NCBI GenBank assembly: GCA_025934955.1
Contig: JAICWE010000006.1
Span: 1-64,000, forward strand
DNA: 64,000 nucleotides
Source of the DNA: Gemmatimonadales bacterium
GTDB lineage: Bacteria > Gemmatimonadota > Gemmatimonadetes > Gemmatimonadales > GWC2-71-9
Direction of reading: 5' to 3'
How positions within the stretch are numbered: the stretch's first letter is position 1; each line of letters begins with the position of its first letter. The translations under genes and the position numbers were made by a program. Shown piece by piece: positions 3,937 through 44,298 of this stretch. The notes beneath the pieces are model-generated. The model searched no databases, was not told the DNA's origin, and saw only the letters and a list, made by a program, of their open reading frames with translations.

Positions 3937-6690
3937 TCATCCGGTCGCGCCGAAGCCCGCCGCGATGCAATTGATGCTGAGGAGGAGCGCCGAGAGCTGC
4001 TCCTCCTCGACGTTCCCCGGGCCGGCCTCCCGCACCCGCCGGAGCAGCTGGACCTGCTGCCGGCTCACCTGGTTCAGCGTGCCGAGCCGCCGGCCGAGCC
4101 GGCGCAGGAAGCGCGGGTAGCGCTCGACCAGCGTCCGCCCGCCGCTCACGTGCAACACCGCCGCCACCGTGCGATGGTATTCCTCCTCCACCATCGCGAA
4201 CACCGCGGAGCGGGCATGCTCCTCCGGGACCAGCGCCGCGTACTCGCGCGCCAGGTCCAGGTCCACGTAGGTCAGCGTCTTCTCCACCTCGTCCACCACC
4301 AGCCGGAAGAGCCGCGACTCGGCGAACATGCGCTTGAGCAGCGCGTCGCCGCGGGCGCCACGGACCTGCAGAAAGGTCTCGATCCCGCTGCCGACACCGT
4401 ACCACCCCGGCACGAAATGGCGGTTCTGCGACCAGGCAAAGACCCAGGGGATTGCGCGCAGATCTGCCAGCGACTTGGCGCCGAAGCGCCGCGCCGGCCG
4501 GCTCCCCATGTTGAGCAGCGACAGCTCCTCCAGCGGACTCGCCGCCTGGTAGTAGAGCAGCAGGTCGGGATGATCGATCAGCACGCGATACGCCGCCTGG
4601 GCGGCGCCGGAGAGGGCCTCCATCGCCTCGTCGAACTCGCCGCTCGGCGTGAGCGCCTCCTCCCGCTCCGACTTGAGCGTGTGCTCCAGCACGCTGGCCG
4701 CGAGCAGTTCGAGCTGATACTGCGCGGTGCCGCGGTTGGCGTACTTGAAGCTGACGACCTCGCCCTGCTCCGTGAGGCGGAGCCTGCCGCGCACCGACCC
4801 GGCCGGCTGCGCGGCGATGGCACGGCCGGTCGGCGCGCCGCCGCGGCTCACCGAGCCGCCGCGCCCATGGAAGAAGCTGGTCGGCGTACCCGACTCATTG
4901 CCCGCGCGGCTCAGCTTCACCTGCGCCTTGCTCAGCTCCCAGTTGCTGGTGAGAAACCCGCCGTCCTTGTTCGAGTCGGAGTAGCCGATCATCACCTCCT
5001 GGACCCCGCCCTGCCCCCGCACGCTGCGGCGCACCACCGGCACCGCCAGCAGCTCGCGCATGATCTGCGGCGCCCGCTGGAGATCGTCGATGGTCTCGAA
5101 CAGCGGCACGATCGGGAGCGTGCAGCTCTCGACGCCGGCGGCGTCGGCGAAGAGGCCGCCTTCCTTGGCCAGCAGATAGACCGCGAGCATGTCGGCGACG
5201 CTCCGCGTCATGCTCAGCACGAAGCAGCCGAACGCCTCGCGGTCCACCTCGCCGCGGAGCGCCGTCACCAGCGGAAACATGCCTAACGTCTCGGCGGACC
5301 CTGCCGGCAGCGCGGGGGCGGTGTGATCGGCGGGAAGCGGCCGCGCGAGCTCGGCCAGGAGCCAGCTCTTCCAAGCGTCGCTCGCCGGGTCGGGCGGCTC
5401 GCCGCCCGGATGGCGCGCGCGCCAGAGATCGGCCACGGCGGCGTTCACCTTGGTCGAGTTGTCGCGCAGGTCCAGTCGGACGGTGCTGAAGCGGAACGCC
5501 TCGACCTCGCGCAGCACCGGCCGCACCAGCAGGTCGGCGGAGGCGGCGATACCGCTCTCCCGGAGCCCGCAGTCGAGCGTGCGCAGATCGGCGAGCAGCG
5601 CGTCCGCGGTGCGGTAGCCCCGCTCTCCGGCCGCGTTGCCTCCCTCGGCTGCCTCCACGGTCTGGTCCAGCCGGCGCAGCATGGCCGCGACGAACTGGCG
5701 GAAGATCTCGCCCGGGTTGCGCGACGCGATGCCGGCGCCGTCGCCGCTCGCGGCCAGCGCCTTCTCCAGCGCGGCGCGGAACGGCGCCGGCACCGGCAGC
5801 CCGCGTTCGGTGATGCTCAGCGCGCGCAGCAACTCGCCGATGCGCTGGCGATAGCGGCGCAGCACCGCGAGCCGGTTTTCCTTCACCGTCTGTCGCGTGA
5901 CCGCGTTGGTCACATTGGGATTCCCGTCGCGGTCGCCGCCGATCCAGGAGCCGAACTGGATGAACGCGCCGGCCTCGCCCGCCGCGCTGCCGTAGTGCTG
6001 CTCGACGGCGCGGTCGAGCCGCTCGTGCAGCTCCGCGACTGCCTCGAACAGCGTCTCGTTGAAGAAGTGGAGACCCCAGTACACCTCCTGCGGCACCGTC
6101 GGACGCTCGAGCTTGAGCTCGCCGGTGAGCCAGAGGAGATCGATCTCGTTCCGGAGCGCGTCGTGCAGCGCGCGGCGCTCGCGCGGCGTCCAGCGGGGGG
6201 ACTCGAGGTCCACCAGCCGGCGATAAATGCGGCGGTGTTTCTCCAGCACCGTCACGCGCTTCGCCTCGGTCGGGTGCGCGGTGATGGTGGGCCGCACCTG
6301 GAGCTGCCGCAGCGTCGCGGCGAGCTCGTCCGCCCGGGTGCCCGCGGCCGCGGCCTCCGCGATCACCTGCGCGAAGGTGCCGCGCACCTGCTCCTGGCCC
6401 CGCTCCGCCTCGGTCTGCCGGCGGCGGCGCATCGCCGCATTCTGTTCGGCGATGGAGAGGAGCTGGAACCAGATGCCCTGGGCCTGCAGCGCGCGGCCGA
6501 CCAGCTCCGGCGCCAGCGAGTCGGGCGGCGCCTCGCCGCGGAGCACCGGCTCGACCTCCGGCTGCCGGGTGCGGACGACGTCCACCAGCATCGCGAACAA
6601 GAGCTCGGCGACTTCGGTGGCGTACTGCGCGGCGCTGGCCGCGGCCGGATCGGCCGAGGGCGGCAGCGTGGTGGCTTCGAAGATGGTCAC
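3937..6690 (-). CDS. ppc: Phosphoenolpyruvate carboxylase (bacterial type)
   Basis: PTITAHPTEAKRVTVLEKHRRIYR, GSWIGGDRDGNPNVT, MIGYSDSNKDGGFLTSNWEL, FFHGRGGSVSRGG; last gene of the serine-cycle operon. Confidence 0.97.
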   Translation of the reverse strand: MTIFEATTLPPSADPAAASAAQYATEVAELLFAMLVDVVRTRQPEVEPVLRGEAPPDSLAPELVGRALQAQGIWFQLLSIAEQNAAMRRRRQTEAERGQEQVRGTFAQVIAEAAAAGTRADELAATLRQLQVRPTITAHPTEAKRVTVLEKHRRIYRRLVDLESPRWTPRERRALHDALRNEIDLLWLTGELKLERPTVPQEVYWGLHFFNETLFEAVAELHERLDRAVEQHYGSAAGEAGAFIQFGSWIGGDRDGNPNVTNAVTRQTVKENRLAVLRRYRQRIGELLRALSITERGLPVPAPFRAALEKALAASGDGAGIASRNPGEIFRQFVAAMLRRLDQTVEAAEGGNAAGERGYRTADALLADLRTLDCGLRESGIAASADLLVRPVLREVEAFRFSTVRLDLRDNSTKVNAAVADLWRARHPGGEPPDPASDAWKSWLLAELARPLPADHTAPALPAGSAETLGMFPLVTALRGEVDREAFGCFVLSMTRSVADMLAVYLLAKEGGLFADAAGVESCTLPIVPLFETIDDLQRAPQIMRELLAVPVVRRSVRGQGGVQEVMIGYSDSNKDGGFLTSNWELSKAQVKLSRAGNESGTPTSFFHGRGGSVSRGGAPTGRAIAAQPAGSVRGRLRLTEQGEVVSFKYANRGTAQYQLELLAASVLEHTLKSEREEALTPSGEFDEAMEALSGAAQAAYRVLIDHPDLLLYYQAASPLEELSLLNMGSRPARRFGAKSLADLRAIPWVFAWSQNRHFVPGWYGVGSGIETFLQVRGARGDALLKRMFAESRLFRLVVDEVEKTLTYVDLDLAREYAALVPEEHARSAVFAMVEEEYHRTVAAVLHVSGGRTLVERYPRFLRRLGRRLGTLNQVSRQQVQLLRRVREAGPGNVEEEQLSALLLSINCIAAGFGATG

Positions 6691-6700
6691 GCGCGGCGAC

Positions 6701-7687
6701 TCAGACGACGCGATCGCGCAGCGGCGAGCCGGCGAAGAAGAGCCGGAGATTCTCCAGTGCGCGCATCCCCATCCCGATCCGCGCCTCCCGCGTCGCGCTG
6801 CCGAGATGCGGCAGCAGCACGACGTTCTCCATCTGGAGCAGCGCCGGCGTCACCTCCGGCTCCCGCTCGAACACGTCGAGCCCGGCGCCGGCGAGATGAC
6901 CGCTGCGGAGCGCCTCCACCAGGGCCGCTTCGTCCACGACGTCGCCCCGCGCCGTATTCACCAGGTAGGCGCCGCGCTTCATGAGCGCCAGCCGCCCGGC
7001 ATTCATCAGGTGCCGCGTCTCCGGCGTCGCGGGACAGTGGAGGCTCACCACGTCGGCCTCCTCCAGCACCGCCTCCAGCGACGACCGGCCCTCGGCGCCT
7101 AACGCCGCGGCGTCCTCCGGCTTCGGCGGGAAGGGGTCGTGGTAGATCACCTTCATCCCGAAGCCGTGATGCGCCCGCCGCGCGACGCCCCGCGCAATCC
7201 GCCCCATGCCGACCAGGCCGAGGGTCTTGCCGGTGATCGCGGTGCCGACCATGTGGGTCGGCCGCCAGCCGGTCCAGCCGCCGGCGCGCAGCTCGCGCTC
7301 GCCCTCGCCGGTCCGGCGGGTCACCATCAGGAGCAGGGTGACCGCGAGATCGGCGGTCGCGTCGGTGAGCACGTCGGGTGTGTTGGACACGGCGATCCCG
7401 CGTGCCCCGGCCGCCGCGGTGTCGATGTGATTGAAGCCGACGCCGTAGTTGGCCAGCAGCTTCGTCCGCAGCGGCTCCGCTGCCAGCACGGCGGCGGTGA
7501 GCCGGTCGGTGACGGTGGGGAGCAGCGCGTCGGCCTCGCGCAGCGCCTGCGCGAGCCCGTCCGCGCCTAACGGGGTGTCGCTCTCGTTGAGCCGGACGTC
7601 GAACTCGGCGCAGAGCGCCCGCTCCACCTCCGCCGGCAGCTTGCGGGTGACGACGACGCGCGGCCGCGAGCCCGCGGGCGCGCTCAT
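6701..7687 (-). CDS. hprA: D-2-hydroxyacid dehydrogenase; glyoxylate/hydroxypyruvate reductase (serine-cycle HprA role inferred)
   Basis: ANYGVGFNHID, GKTLGLVGMGRIARGVARRA (Rossmann), NTARGDVVDEAALVEAL, LLPHLGSAT. Role assigned by operon context. Confidence 0.85.
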   Translation of the reverse strand: MSAPAGSRPRVVVTRKLPAEVERALCAEFDVRLNESDTPLGADGLAQALREADALLPTVTDRLTAAVLAAEPLRTKLLANYGVGFNHIDTAAAGARGIAVSNTPDVLTDATADLAVTLLLMVTRRTGEGERELRAGGWTGWRPTHMVGTAITGKTLGLVGMGRIARGVARRAHHGFGMKVIYHDPFPPKPEDAAALGAEGRSSLEAVLEEADVVSLHCPATPETRHLMNAGRLALMKRGAYLVNTARGDVVDEAALVEALRSGHLAGAGLDVFEREPEVTPALLQMENVVLLPHLGSATREARIGMGMRALENLRLFFAGSPLRDRVV

Positions 7688-8598
7688 GTGCCGACCATCA
7701 CGGGCCGGCTCGGCGCCTTGCGCAACGCCTCCGCCACGGCGCTTCCCAACTCGGCCGCGCTCGGCGCCACGGTGAGGCCCGCCGTGCGCATGATCTCCAC
7801 CTTCTCCGCCGCGCTGTCGCCGAACGCCGAGATGATCGCACCCGCGTGCCCCATCCGGCGTCCGCTCGGCGCCGTCAGGCCGGCGACGTAGCCGACGACC
7901 GGCTTCCGCATGTTCTCCTTGACGAACAGCGACGCCTCGGCCTCCTGGGGACCGCCGATCTCGCCGATCATCATTACCGCTTCGGTCTCAGGATCCTCCT
8001 CGAACAGCTTCAGCATGTCCACGAAGGACGAGCCATTGATCGGGTCGCCGCCGATGCCGACGCTGGTGGTCTGCCCGATGCCGAGCTCGTTCATCTGGCT
8101 CGCGGCCTCGTAGCCCAGCGTGCCCGAGCGGGTCACGACGCCGACGCTCCCGCGCTTGTAGATGTGGCCCGGCATGATGCCGAGCATCGCCTTCCCCGCG
8201 CTGATGATGCCGGCGCAGTTGGGGCCGATCAGCGTCGCCTTCCGCTCCTTGGGGAAGCGCAGCATGTAGCGCTTCACCATCATCATGTCCTGCGCCGGAA
8301 TGCCGTCGGTGATGCAGCAGACGAGACGGACCCCGGCATTGGCGGCTTCCATGATCGCGTCGGCGCAGAACGGCGCCGGCACGAAGATCAGCGTGGCCTC
8401 GGCAGCGGTTTCGGAGACCGCTTCCTTCACCGTGTTGAACACCGGGCGGTCGAGGTGCCGCGTGCCGCCTTTGCCCGGCGTCACCCCGCCGACGACGTTG
8501 GTGCCGTACGCGATCATCTCTTTGGCGTGGAACGTCCCCTTGTCGCCGGTGAAGCCCTGGATGATGACCCGCGTCTTCTCGTCGATGAGGATGCTCAT
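7684..8598 (-). CDS. mtkB: Malate-CoA ligase (malate thiokinase) alpha/ADP-forming subunit, SucD-like
   Basis: [45 protein letters not shown]; MtkB-like segment [40 protein letters not shown], unlike SucD as I recall it; catalytic [10 protein letters not shown]; genomic context. Confidence 0.85.
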
Positions 8599-9767
8599 GC
8601 GGACACTCCCTGCTTGGCGGCGACCACGCGATCGGCGGCCTCCGCGAGCGTGTCGGCGCTGATGATGGGAAGGCCGCTCTCCCTGATGATGCGGCGGCCC
8701 TCCTCCACGTTGGTCCCGGCGAGGCGCACGACCAGCGGCACCCGCGGCTTGAGCTCGCGCGCCGCCTGCACCACGCCCTGCGCCACCCAGTCGCACCGAT
8801 TGATGCCGGCGAAGATGTTCACGAGCATGGCGCTCACCTTGACGTCGGAGAGCACCAGCTTGAACGCGTTGGCCACCCGCTCGGGACTCGCGCCGCCGCC
8901 GATGTCGAGGAAGTTGGCCGGCTCGCCGCCGGCGTGCTTGATCATGTCCATCGTGGCCATCGCGAGCCCGGCGCCGTTGATGATGCACCCGATGTCGCCG
9001 TCGAGCGCGACGTAGTTGAGGCCATACTCCGCCGCCTGCGCTTCGCGCGGATCCTCCTCGGCGTAGTCGCGCAGCTCGGCGACGTTGGGCCGGCGGAAGA
9101 GCGCGTTGTCGTCGAACGCCATCTTGGCGTCGAGTGCCAGGATCTGGGTGTCCTCGGTGAGCACCAGCGGATTGATCTCCACCATCGTCGCGTCGAGCTC
9201 GCGAAAGGCGCGGTGGCAACCGAGAAGCACGGTGACCATGCGATTCACCTGCGCGGCCGGCAGTCCGAGCGCGAACGCGATTTCGCGCGCCTGAAAGGCG
9301 CTGAGGCCGATCGCCGGCTCCACCACCTCGCGCACGATGGAGTCGGGATGCCGCTTCGCCACCTCCTCGATTTCCATCCCGCCGTTGGCCGACGCGACGA
9401 TCATGATGCGCTGCGACTTGCGATCCAGCACGAAGCCGATGTACAGCTCGCGCGCGATCGGCACCGCCTGCTCGACGTAGAGCCGGTGCACGACGCGTCC
9501 CTCGGGGCCGGTCTGGTGGGTGACGAGCTTCTTGCCCAGCAGCGCCTTGGCCGCCTGACGGACCTCGTCCTCGCTGCTGCAGACCTTCACGCCGCCGGCC
9601 TTGCCGCGCGCGCCGGAGTGGATCTGCGCTTTCACCACCCAGCGCGCGCCGCCGATCTCGGCCGCCCGGTAGACCGCCTGCTCCGGGCTGTACGCCACCC
9701 CGCCGCGCGGGATCGCGACCCCGAAGCCGGCCAGCAGCTCCTTCGCCTGATATTCGTGGATCTCCAC
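8595..9767 (-). CDS. mtkA: Malate-CoA ligase (malate thiokinase) beta subunit, SucC-like
   Basis: GTG start at 9767 preceded by [113 protein letters not shown]. Confidence 0.87.
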
Positions 9768-9815
9768 GATGATCTCCTGTGTGCGGCGCCTCACCGGACG
9801 CCGCGTGGGAGTGGA

Positions 9816-10778
9816 CTACCGCGTTGCGGCGAGCTCCTTCGACTTCGCTTCGATGGCCGCCGCGGTGCGGACGACGTTGTCCGCCATCCGCGCGCTCGCG
9901 GCGTCGATCATCTTGCCGTCGAGCTGGGCCGCGCCCTTCCCCTGCGCCGCCGCCTCGTCCAGCGCCGCGAGGATCCGGCGCGCACGCTCGAGCTCCGCGG
10001 GGGGCGGGGAGAACACCTCGTTGGCCAGCGCGATCTGCGACGGATGGATGGCCCACTTCCCCTCGATGCCTAACGCGGCACCCCGCCGCGCCGCGAGCCG
10101 GTAGCCGTCCGTATCCTTGAAGTCGCCGAAGGGGCCGTCGATCGGACGGAGTCCGTACGCGCGACAGGCCACCAGCATGCGCGAGAGGCCGGCGTGCCAC
10201 TGGTCGCCGGGGTAATCGGGATTGAGGCCACCGATGTTGACGGTGCGGGCCCGGCAGCTCGCCGCGTAGTCCGCCACGCCGAAGTGCATCGCCTCCAGCC
10301 GGGGTGAACTCCGGGCGATGGACTCGACGTTGGCCATGCCCAGCGCCGTCTCGATCAGGACGTCGATGCCGATCCGGTGCGGGATCCGCTTCGCCGCCTC
10401 GATCTGGGTGAGCAAGGCGTCGGTGAGATACACGTCCGCCGCCACGCCCACCTTGGGGATCAGCACGGTGTCGAGCCGGTGTCCCGCCTGCTCGATCACG
10501 TCCACCATGTCGCGATAGAAATAGTGGGTGTCGATCCCGTTGACGCGCACGCAGATGGTCTTCCCCGCGCCGCGCCAGTCGTGCTCCAGCAGCGAGGCGA
10601 CGACGTTGCGCCGCGCCTGCTCCTTGTCCGCCGGCGCGACCGCATCCTCCAGGTCGAGGAAGACGACGTCCGCGTCGCTGTCGAGCGCCTTCGGGAACAT
10701 CGCCGGTGCGGAGCCCGGGACCGCCAGCTCGCTTCGCTGCAGCCGGGGATGCGCGGGCTCGTGGCGCGTGTGGCTCAT
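9816..10778 (-). CDS. mclA: L-malyl-CoA lyase (HpcH/HpaI aldolase family CoA-ester lyase)
   Basis: PRLQRSELAVPGSAPAMFPKALDSDADVVFLDLEDAVAPADKEQARRNV, VRVNGIDTHYFYRDMVDVIE, IPKVGVAADVY, LIETALGMANVESIA, GKWAIHPSQI. Confidence 0.9.
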   Translation of the reverse strand: MSHTRHEPAHPRLQRSELAVPGSAPAMFPKALDSDADVVFLDLEDAVAPADKEQARRNVVASLLEHDWRGAGKTICVRVNGIDTHYFYRDMVDVIEQAGHRLDTVLIPKVGVAADVYLTDALLTQIEAAKRIPHRIGIDVLIETALGMANVESIARSSPRLEAMHFGVADYAASCRARTVNIGGLNPDYPGDQWHAGLSRMLVACRAYGLRPIDGPFGDFKDTDGYRLAARRGAALGIEGKWAIHPSQIALANEVFSPPPAELERARRILAALDEAAAQGKGAAQLDGKMIDAASARMADNVVRTAAAIEAKSKELAATR

Positions 10779-10785
10779 CGCCGGC

Positions 10786-12036
10786 TCACGCGGGCACCGC
10801 GGCGCGCGCCTTGGGCGCGGCGGCCTGCGGCTCCGGCGCCCGGGCCGGCAGCTCCCGCTGCTCCAGCTTCGGGGCGGTGCGGCGCCAGTACTCCTCGGCC
10901 GCGGCGACGCCGCTGCCCGGCTCGATCTTGACGCCGGCGTCGCGCATGGCCATCTCCGCGCCGGCCAGCCCGCCGAGCAGCATGAGCTCGTTCAGATCGC
11001 CCAGGTGACCGATGCGGAAGAGCCGGCCTGCCATCCGCGCGAGCCCGGCGCCGAGCGCCAGGTCGTAGCGCCGGTACGCGATGTCGATCACCTCGGCGCC
11101 GTTGATGCCGGCCGGCACCATGACCGCCGAGACCGTGTCGGAGTACCACTTCGGCTGGCGGGCGCAGAGCTCGAGGCCCCAGGCCTTCACCGCGGCACGG
11201 GTCCCCTCGGCCAGCCGGTGGTGCCGCGCGAAGACGTTGTCGAGGCCTTCCTCAAGCAGCAGGTCGATCGACTCGCGCAGCCCGTAGAGCAGCGGCAGCG
11301 ACGGCGTGTACGGGAAGTAACCGGTCGCGTTCTGCTTGGTCATGTCGCCCAGATCGAAGAAGACCCGGTTCAGCTTGGCCGACTCGTACTTCGAGAGCGC
11401 CTTCTGGCTCACGCCGAGGATGCCGAGACCGGCCGGCAGCATGAAGCCCTTCTGCGAGCCGGTGACGGCGAGGTCCACGCCCCAGTCGTCCATCCGGAAA
11501 TCGATGCTGCCGATCGAGCTCACGCCGTCCACCGCGAGCAGCGCCGGATGCTTCGCGTCGTCCAGCGCCGTGCGCATGCCGGCGACATCACTGGTGACAC
11601 CGGTGGCCGTCTCGTTGTGGGTGAAGAGCACCGCCTTGATCGCGTGAGCCTTGTCGGCGGCGAGCGCTTCGGCATAGCGGTCGATCGGCGCGCCCTCGCC
11701 CCACTCGGTCTCGAGGATGTCCACCGTGAGGCCGAGCCGCTGAGCCATGTCGATCCAGAGCTGGCTGAACATGCCGAACCGTGCCGCGAGCACGCGGTCG
11801 CCCGGCGAGAGCGTGTTGCAGAGCGCCGCTTCCCACGCGCCGGTGCCACTCGCCGGGAAGATGAAGGCCTGACCGTCGGCGGTCTTGAAGATCTTCTTGA
11901 GATCGCGCAGGACCGGCGCCGCCAGCTTGGGGAAGTCGGGCGAGCGGTGATCCTCCATGGCACGGTGCATGGCACGGAGGATCCGGTCGGGCACGTTGGT
12001 GGGTCCGGGAACGAAGAGGAAATTTCGGCCAGGCAT
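10786..12036 (-). CDS. sgaA: Serine-glyoxylate aminotransferase
   Basis: MPGRNFLFVPGPTNVPDRILRAMHRAMEDHRSPDFP, FIFPASGTGAWEAAL, HNETATGVTSDV, DGVSSIGSIDFRMDDWGVDLAVTGSQKGFMLPAGLG (PLP lysine), LLEEGLDNVFARHHRLAEG. Confidence 0.94.
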   Translation of the reverse strand: MPGRNFLFVPGPTNVPDRILRAMHRAMEDHRSPDFPKLAAPVLRDLKKIFKTADGQAFIFPASGTGAWEAALCNTLSPGDRVLAARFGMFSQLWIDMAQRLGLTVDILETEWGEGAPIDRYAEALAADKAHAIKAVLFTHNETATGVTSDVAGMRTALDDAKHPALLAVDGVSSIGSIDFRMDDWGVDLAVTGSQKGFMLPAGLGILGVSQKALSKYESAKLNRVFFDLGDMTKQNATGYFPYTPSLPLLYGLRESIDLLLEEGLDNVFARHHRLAEGTRAAVKAWGLELCARQPKWYSDTVSAVMVPAGINGAEVIDIAYRRYDLALGAGLARMAGRLFRIGHLGDLNELMLLGGLAGAEMAMRDAGVKIEPGSGVAAAEEYWRRTAPKLEQRELPARAPEPQAAAPKARAAVPA

Positions 12037-12099
12037 GTCGCAACCCCGTCGAATAGAGAGAACAACTTCGCGCGCGCTCACCGGCGCCCGCGACTGCCA

Positions 12100-12131
12100 C
12101 ACTGCGTCCGCACTGCGTCGGTCACTGCATC
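12100..12131. promoter_or_regulatory. Three phased direct repeats CACTGCRTC in the divergent sgaA/gck intergenic region; candidate regulator binding site
   Basis: CACTGCGTC at 12100-12108 and 12111-12119, CACTGCATC at 12123-12131 (11 and 12 bp periods), inside the 147-bp gap between divergent start codons. Confidence 0.45.
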
Positions 12132-12183
12132 GCAGCCGACGGCGCGGGCGCATTGACCCCGCCGTCGTATATTGTGCGGCGCC

Positions 12184-13521
12184 ATGGCCGCCGATACCGC
12201 CGTCGTTACCGCCCCCTCGCGATCGCGCGACATTCTCGCGGATCTCTACGCCCACGCGGTCGCCGCCGCCATGCCGGGGCCGGCGATCCGCGCCGCGCTC
12301 GATCGCGACCCTCCGCCCGCCGGCCGCCGCGTCTGGCTCTTCGCGCTCGGCAAGGCGGCGCTGCCGATGGCCGACGCCGCGGTGGCCGCGCTCCACGCGT
12401 CGGGCGCGGCGCCGATCGGCGGAGTCGTCGTAGTGCCGGAGGCCGCTGCCGCGCCCCACTCGGCGCTCACGCTCGCCGTCGGCGACCACCCCGAGCCCGG
12501 CGCCGGCTCGTTCACCGCGGCCGCGCAGCTCGCCGTCGCGGCCGCCCGGGTGCGCGACGATGACGAAGCGTGGGTGCTGCTCTCCGGCGGCACCACCAGC
12601 CTCATCGGCGCGCCCGACGAAGGGATCAGCGCCGCCGACCTCACCGCGCTCTACGCGCTCCTGCTCCGCTCCGGCCTCGACATCGGCGCGATGAACCAGG
12701 TCCGCAAGCGATTCACCCGCTGGGGCGGCGGCCGGCTCGCGCGGGCACTCGCCCGCGCCGCGCGAGTGCGGCTCTACGTCGTCTCCGATGTCATCGGCGA
12801 CGATCTCGCCGCCATCGGCTCGGGCCCCTGCGTCCCCGATCCATCCAGCGCCGCCGACGTGCGGCGGCTCCTCGATGCCGCGGGGCTTCTCACGCGGCTA
12901 CCGCCGGCGCTCCGGCAACGGCTCGACATGGCTCAATGCGGCGAAACGGACGAAACCCCGAAGCCCGGGGATCCCGTCTTCGACCGCGTCCACATCGAGC
13001 TGATTGCGAGTAATCATCTGGCGCTCGAAGCCGCGGCCAGACGCGCGGCAGCGTTGGGCCTCGCTCCCGAGATCTTCGGCGATCCGATCGCCGGGGAGGC
13101 GTCGGTGGCCGGAGCGAGTGTAGCCGCAATGATTCTAAGGTATGTAACGTCGGCGGGAGCGCAACCGCCGGGATCACATTGTCTGATCTGGGGCGGCGAG
13201 ACCACGGTGACGATCGCCGGCGACGCGGGGCTCGGCGGACGCAGCCAGGAGCTGGCGCTCGCCGCGGCAGAGCGGCTCAGCGGCGCACCGGTCGGCGTGG
13301 CGCTGCTCGCGGCGGGCACCGACGGCCGCGACGGGCCGACCGACGCCGCCGGCGCGATCGTCGACGGCGGGACCTGGAACGCTATCGCCGCGGCGAACGG
13401 TGATCCCCGGCGCGCGCTCGCACGACACGACGCGTATCACGCGCTGGACGCCGCCGGCGCGCTGCTCCGGCCGGGGATGACCGGCACCAACGTGATGGAT
13501 GTGGTGATCGCGCTGGCTTAG
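12184..13521 (+). CDS. gck: Glycerate 2-kinase (MOFRL family)
   Basis: VWLFALGKAALPMADAA, LSGGTTSLIGAPDEGISAADLTALYALLLRSGLDIGAMNQVRKRFTRWGGGRLA, IWGGETTVTIAGDAGLGGRSQELALAAA, AAGTDGRDGPTDAAGA. Confidence 0.93.
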   Translation: MAADTAVVTAPSRSRDILADLYAHAVAAAMPGPAIRAALDRDPPPAGRRVWLFALGKAALPMADAAVAALHASGAAPIGGVVVVPEAAAAPHSALTLAVGDHPEPGAGSFTAAAQLAVAAARVRDDDEAWVLLSGGTTSLIGAPDEGISAADLTALYALLLRSGLDIGAMNQVRKRFTRWGGGRLARALARAARVRLYVVSDVIGDDLAAIGSGPCVPDPSSAADVRRLLDAAGLLTRLPPALRQRLDMAQCGETDETPKPGDPVFDRVHIELIASNHLALEAAARRAAALGLAPEIFGDPIAGEASVAGASVAAMILRYVTSAGAQPPGSHCLIWGGETTVTIAGDAGLGGRSQELALAAAERLSGAPVGVALLAAGTDGRDGPTDAAGAIVDGGTWNAIAAANGDPRRALARHDAYHALDAAGALLRPGMTGTNVMDVVIALA

Positions 13522-43931: not shown

Positions 43932-43936
43932 CCGAG

Positions 43937-44298
43937 TGGAGGCGCAGGGAATTGAACCCTGGTCCGAATCAGCGTCCGAAACAGCGTCTACGTGCGTAGG
44001 CCTGGCTTCTTGCCGTCGCTCCCGGGCCGCTGCCAAGCCGACCTTCCCGTGAGCTAGCCCCTGAATCTCACCCTCGTCGGCGGGGCATCCGCCGAGGGCC
44101 AGCCCGGATTTTCGATTCGGTCATGGCGCGCCGGACGCGCTCCGATGTCCGAAGGTGCGTAGAGCGAGCTTAGCTCAGCTTACGCAGCCATTGCCAGTTC
44201 AGTGTTGGCAGATAAAGCGTTCCAAGCGGTTTTACCAGGGACCTGGACCTGGGCACGCTGCCATTCCATCTACTAACCCGTCGAAGCCGTTCGCCCCC
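43937..44298 (-). ncRNA. ssrA: Transfer-messenger RNA (tmRNA)
   Basis: Minus strand begins GGGGGCGAACGGCTTCGACGGGTTAG (canonical 5' tmRNA) and ends ..GGTTCAATTCCCTGCGCCTCCA (T-arm/acceptor, pairs with 5' GGGGGCG); internal ORF ends ..ANTELAMAA-stop at 44180-44182. CCA not encoded. Confidence 0.95.

Follow-up and report, generated by a model that had tools for sequence, protein, structure and literature searches.

The window analysed here is a 64,000-nucleotide stretch of contig JAICWE010000006.1 from a Gemmatimonadales bacterium, and positions 3937–13521 of it hold seven genes whose products match dedicated enzymes of the serine cycle, a textbook pathway for making cell carbon from one-carbon (C1) compounds. 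Six minus-strand genes are arranged in the transcription order sga-mcl-mtkA-mtkB-hpr-ppc, and a seventh, gck, diverges from the first (Table 1). All seven genes named in the original prediction, which was made from the sequence alone, are present at full length. The gaps and overlaps of 4–50 bp proposed there proved right in kind but a little too wide, as the real spacings run from −4 to +21 bp (ppc/hpr +10, hpr/mtkB −4, mtkB/mtkA −4, mtkA/mcl +21 and mcl/sga +7). The listed 567-amino-acid sga open reading frame extends further upstream of the start that we assign, an ATG at 12036 (MPGRNFLFVPGPTN...). The gck gene starts roughly 150 bp upstream of sga in the opposite direction, and Rfam yields no match in the gap between them (12037–12183), where no regulatory element was identified.

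Table 1. Features of the serine-cycle locus, in window coordinates, with the matches on which each name is based.
Feature	Position	Strand	Basis
ppc, phosphoenolpyruvate carboxylase	3937..6690	-	917 aa, GTG start; Pfam PEPcase PF00311, 784 bits, nearly full length; NCBIfam PRK00009, 761 bits (just under the curated cut-off of 815)
hpr, D-2-hydroxyacid dehydrogenase, probable hydroxypyruvate/glyoxylate reductase	6701..7687	-	Top model glyoxylate reductase, 301 bits (below cut-off of 455); among solved structures, glyoxylate reductases and D-glycerate dehydrogenases come closest
mtkB, malate-CoA ligase alpha subunit (SucD family)	7684..8598	-	NCBIfam PRK05678/TIGR01019 above cut-off; shares an operon with the gene for the malate-CoA ligase beta subunit; clusters with MtkB of methylotrophs in a concatenated tree
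mtkA, malate-CoA ligase beta subunit (SucC family)	8595..9794	-	NF010647, 702 bits (cut-off 604)
mcl, L-malyl-CoA lyase	9816..10778	-	Top solved structure 5ugr, 400 bits, 65% identity
sga, serine-glyoxylate aminotransferase (class V)	10786..12036	-	Among solved structures, best match to the serine-glyoxylate aminotransferase 6pk1 (493 bits); 629 bits on the BhcA model (cut-off 650)
Divergent sga/gck intergenic gap, presumed site of both promoters	12037..12183	.	Position only
gck, MOFRL/DUF4147-type glycerate 2-kinase, divergent from sga	~12184 (ATG)..13521	+	Pfam domains DUF4147 (189 bits) and MOFRL (120 bits); scores of 174 and 141 bits on NCBIfam models for glycerate 2-kinase do not reach the cut-offs

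Several of these families have close housekeeping relatives, and we used the genome's own proteins and known methylotroph proteins as internal controls. On the malate-CoA ligase beta model NF010647, the genome's own SucC reaches only 389 bits against the 702 bits of MtkA, and two control proteins, MtkA of Methylobacterium bullatum and that of Aminobacter, reach 760 and 725 bits, respectively. This SucC is only 47% identical to MtkA; its gene, which is located on a different contig, is followed by sucD, and the two form a separate sucCD pair. The best structural match of Mcl, 5ugr, is a malyl-CoA/beta-methylmalyl-CoA lyase, whereas solved structures of the citrate-lyase family match Mcl with 127 bits at most. 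Moreover, the catalytic residues E44, D45, R78, E143, D170 and D292 are present in Mcl, matching the full set of six that PMC3832036 gives for the active site of the Rhodobacter malyl-CoA lyase. By family assignment, MtkAB is a malate-CoA ligase and Mcl is an L-malyl-CoA lyase. Hpr and Gck are probable assignments made at the level of the family only, as their scores against the specific models lie under the cut-offs.

No C1-oxidation gene had been noticed in the window, and we also identified none there. Such genes are present elsewhere in the source genome, a draft of 3.05 Mb in 110 contigs that is 88% complete with an estimated contamination of 0. A search of this wider genome recovered xoxF, fae, mtdB, mch, fhs, folD and glyA. 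Contig C105 encodes an XoxF-type methanol dehydrogenase that matches the XoxF-type enzyme 4mae with 740 bits and aligns the residues WDYDGVNE, containing the lanthanide-type motif WDYDG, over the metal-binding motif of that structure. The gene is followed by one for a XoxJ-like periplasmic protein, and a second XoxF-like gene on contig C109 likewise has a XoxJ-like neighbour. Contig C68 carries a contiguous row comprising fae, mtdB, a DUF1464 gene, an ATP-grasp gene, fhcB, fhcA, fhcD, fhcC and mch. Fae scores 248 bits (cut-off 118), and FTR and MCH domains are found in this cluster; fhcB, fhcA and fhcC were named from position and sequence because Pfam gave no matches or only general ones. The original prediction would have been refuted if the genome lacked any route by which C1 units enter tetrahydrofolate (THF), but such a route can be assembled from its genes. 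Specifically, Fhs (862–880 bits), FolD (222 bits) and GlyA (569 bits) for methylene-THF and serine formation are found alongside Fae and XoxF. Two more alcohol dehydrogenases of the pyrroloquinoline quinone type occur beyond the XoxF genes (L041:9379-11181 on C105 and L043:8204-9976 on C61), one of them directly upstream of xoxF.

Gemmatimonadota are abundant in soil, and few have been cultured so far. To describe the occurrence of the cassette in this phylum we used a sample of 298 genomes, in which a genome was counted as cassette-bearing if it has an Mcl orthologue of at least 68% identity (tallied by hand, with one split in two pieces). By this measure 29 of the 298 genomes (roughly 10%) carry the cassette. 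XoxF is present in 26 of these 29 genomes but in only 52 of the 269 that do not carry the cassette (Fisher 4e-14). Shared ancestry inflates the value obtained with genomes, and thus a count by genus is fairer: 11 of 13 cassette-bearing genera have XoxF, compared with 28 of 106 others (p 7e-5). Fae occurs in 24 of the 29 genomes. The association with Fhs is mild only (26/29 versus 188/269) because this enzyme is common in the phylum.

The gene order is also conserved. Among 15 Gemmatimonadota neighbourhoods from other genomes, which span several genera, the intact six-gene order is found in 12; two others have no adjacent ppc and one keeps sga-mcl-hpr only. The gck gene is divergently adjacent in six of the 15, and the same rlmN and aspS genes flank the operon here and in several relatives. 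Such recurrence shows that the six genes do not adjoin one another by chance.

Two variants of the locus were seen in passing. One reduced locus (L059, G202:C77) consists of sga-mcl-hpr with neither mtkAB nor ppc and resides in a genome that has no match to XoxF or Fae; its lyase may have another role there. In loci L050-L055, gck is not beside the operon, and a RecQ-type helicase-like gene and a gene for a small GroES-like protein adjoin sga upstream.

Taken together, the family assignments with their internal controls, the conserved gene order and the C1 genes of the genome support the serine-cycle interpretation originally proposed. We judge with a probability of about 0.9 that the cluster is a serine-cycle operon for C1 assimilation in a member of the Gemmatimonadota that, by gene content, oxidizes methanol. 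In this pathway, the periplasmic step would be the oxidation of methanol by XoxF, after which Fae and the tetrahydromethanopterin (H4MPT) cluster would convert formaldehyde to formate, Fhs and FolD would form methylene-THF, and GlyA would join it to glycine to make serine. Sga would then convert serine and glyoxylate to hydroxypyruvate and glycine, Hpr would convert hydroxypyruvate to glycerate, and Gck would phosphorylate the glycerate. A putative housekeeping enolase would lead to phosphoenolpyruvate (PEP), from which Ppc would make oxaloacetate, and a putative housekeeping malate dehydrogenase would produce malate. Finally, MtkAB would convert malate to malyl-CoA, which Mcl would split into glyoxylate and acetyl-CoA, with extra glyoxylate most likely regenerated via an enzyme of the isocitrate lyase (ICL) family. 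If the genes are expressed and their products are active as predicted, the organism may grow on C1 compounds. Some observations weigh against this interpretation. The assembly of the source genome is an incomplete draft, three of the 29 cassette-bearing genomes have no XoxF match and five have none for Fae, and the putative regeneration of glyoxylate would depend on an ICL-family protein that is divergent.

Every enzyme encoded in the window could also serve an operon that works without C1 input, either by assimilating glyoxylate or glycine, an option that the original prediction had kept in play, or by splitting malate to acetyl-CoA and glyoxylate in the style of a reverse glyoxylate shunt. 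The lack of an identified C1 gene in the window and the three cassette-bearing genomes with no XoxF match would fit such a role. However, the presence of XoxF, Fae, the whole H4MPT cluster, Fhs, FolD and GlyA in the same genome disfavours it, as does the strong co-occurrence of the cassette with XoxF across the phylum, and we regard it as very unlikely.

The aminotransferase could instead be BhcA of the beta-hydroxyaspartate cycle, which would make the locus a catabolic system for glycolate or glyoxylate. We considered this reading because BhcA is the top NCBIfam match for Sga. However, the score of 629 bits is under the cut-off of 650; on the same model, a genuine BhcA whose gene belongs to a bhcABCD operon reaches 731 bits, and Sga of the Aminobacter serine operon reaches 600 bits. 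In a tree, BhcA proteins form a fully supported clade of their own that is separate from the Sga proteins of Gemmatimonadota. Furthermore, bhcA adjoins bhcB and bhcC in every bhcA record examined, whereas neither these genes nor bhcD lie beside sga here, where the operon genes mcl, mtkA, mtkB, hpr and ppc are found instead (the remaining genome was not searched for bhcBCD). The cut-off, the tree and the neighbourhood together led us to reject the beta-hydroxyaspartate cycle, whose chances we place lower still, and by these comparisons Sga is classed as a serine-glyoxylate aminotransferase rather than BhcA.

MtkA and MtkB also pass general succinyl-CoA ligase models, but the notion, anticipated in the original prediction, that the pair is a housekeeping succinyl-CoA synthetase lying by chance beside a CitE-like lyase of the citrate-lyase kind is hardly tenable given the separate sucCD, the failure of SucC on the model that MtkA passes, the 65% identity and far higher score of Mcl with 5ugr, and a gene order conserved across phyla.

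The serine-cycle operon also extends beyond the Gemmatimonadota. The identical order sga-mcl-mtkA-mtkB-hpr-ppc is found in gammaproteobacterial metagenome-assembled genomes (MAGs), in a genome named candidatus Porisulfidus and in Mesorhizobium loti. In a tree of Mcl, MtkA and MtkB, which is quick and unrooted and thus sets no direction of transfer, the Gemmatimonadota join Methylobacterium bullatum and Paraburkholderia phymatum in a single set with full support, inside which a MAG named for the Actinobacteria is also found. Horizontal movement of the operon is likely because proteobacteria share its order, a near-identical version resides on a plasmid and the tree set mixes phyla. The proposal that this is a portable cassette therefore gains from the shared proteobacterial order and from the near-identical order on an Aminobacter plasmid. 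The MAG just mentioned (Actinobacteria bacterium Jr-7aug17-86, L112) has mcl-mtkA-mtkB 75–78% identical to those of the window and lies inside the Gemmatimonadota clade, so that either the genes were transferred recently or the contig was mis-binned. The shared order in gammaproteobacterial MAGs and the draft state of the genome might suggest that the window contig is itself a proteobacterial contaminant, but this is scarcely credible, as the window genes fall within Gemmatimonadota sequences in both this tree and the Sga tree, the bin has an estimated contamination of 0, and the rlmN and aspS flanks are common to several relatives.

The serine cycle requires a source of glyoxylate, for which the original prediction had suggested a search for genes of the ethylmalonyl-CoA pathway or for ICL. 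None of the 29 cassette-bearing genomes has a crotonyl-CoA reductase above the cut-off, and all matches are far below it; we therefore rejected the ethylmalonyl-CoA pathway. The second part of the search was answered in part, as the source genome has an ICL-family protein in a divergent form only. Since none of the 29 genomes yielded a crotonyl-CoA reductase, glyoxylate is probably replenished by an ICL-family enzyme.

In a tally by hand, a canonical ICL occurs in 16 of the 29 genomes and the divergent form in 11 others, the source genome among them; the remaining two have neither, and the two forms never occur together. The divergent protein of the source genome is encoded on the minus strand at L094:4991-6178 (C84; matched part 7981-9036). 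Its counterparts in ten other genomes are 75–87% identical to it, the form being around 380–395 amino acids long, and canonical ICL is roughly 30% identical to it. The divergent protein fails the NCBIfam cut-offs for isocitrate lyase (170 bits for a cut-off of 562 and 165 bits for one of 275.9), yet it keeps most motifs of the ICL active site (SGWQ, D-x-EAGFGG, CGH, ARTD, N-x-SPS and QF-x-TL), with RTCGH where the canonical enzyme has KKCGH. In one genome (G282), canonical ICL adjoins a malate synthase-like gene (assigned by eye), and no such neighbour was seen beside the divergent form. The alternation of the two forms suggests replacement of canonical ICL by the divergent one, although it also tracks genus boundaries. 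We tentatively propose, at somewhat less than even odds, that the divergent enzyme has replaced canonical ICL as the replenisher of glyoxylate for the serine cycle in one set of Gemmatimonadota that includes the source genome.

Comparison with known systems places the operon among familiar ones. It has the same dedicated enzymes as the Methylobacterium serine cycle (Sga, Hpr, Mtk, Ppc and Mcl) and shares the fully supported Mcl, MtkA and MtkB set with the M. bullatum cluster. However, the order in that cluster is sga, hpr, gap, mtkA, mtkB, ppc, mcl, and the identity between the two Hpr proteins is only 35%. Plasmid pAA01 of Aminobacter aminovorans (NZ_CP015006) carries sga-mcl-mtkA-mtkB-hpr followed by a DUF4147 glycerate kinase, and thus has six of the seven gene types with the first five in the same order, but its operon has no ppc and the kinase is co-directional rather than divergent. 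The gammaproteobacterial MAGs KW1-S05_58, PMV_7.24 and Centralia_MAG_32 (L103, L105 and L140) have the identical six-gene order, although their proteins are 50–76% identical to those of the window and lie outside the well-supported set that contains the Gemmatimonadota.

The phylum itself is less novel in this respect than the original prediction held. Butterfield et al. described methylotrophy based on XoxF, H4MPT and the malate-type serine pathway in Gemmatimonadetes, the same phylum as our source genome, from California grassland soil in 2016 (PeerJ 4:e2687, PMC5103831). The H4MPT genes lie directly beside xoxF in the genomes covered there, whereas the two are on separate contigs here; the gene order of this operon and the divergent ICL-family protein are not described in the parts of the main text consulted. 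A 2024 survey of floodplain MAGs (PMC11264602) lists Gemmatimonadetes among the classes with methanol dehydrogenase, and our literature search found no paper on malyl-CoA lyase in methylotrophic Gemmatimonadota. Given the 2016 publication, the window operon is a well-supported further example rather than a new system; the finding is real, and its mechanism is ordinary and well supported. What it adds is a serine-cycle operon outside the proteobacteria that is compact, conserved and apparently mobile, and that is statistically tied to a lanthanide-type methanol dehydrogenase across the phylum, which strengthens the 2016 proteogenomic claim that Gemmatimonadota use methanol in soil. The six-gene order could serve as a marker for finding methanol-using Gemmatimonadota, and the step from acetyl-CoA to glyoxylate becomes testable in lineages that have neither the ethylmalonyl-CoA pathway nor a canonical ICL.

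Elsewhere in the window, a transfer-messenger RNA (tmRNA) gene is located at positions 43934–44298 on the minus strand and encodes the tag peptide ANTELAMAA.

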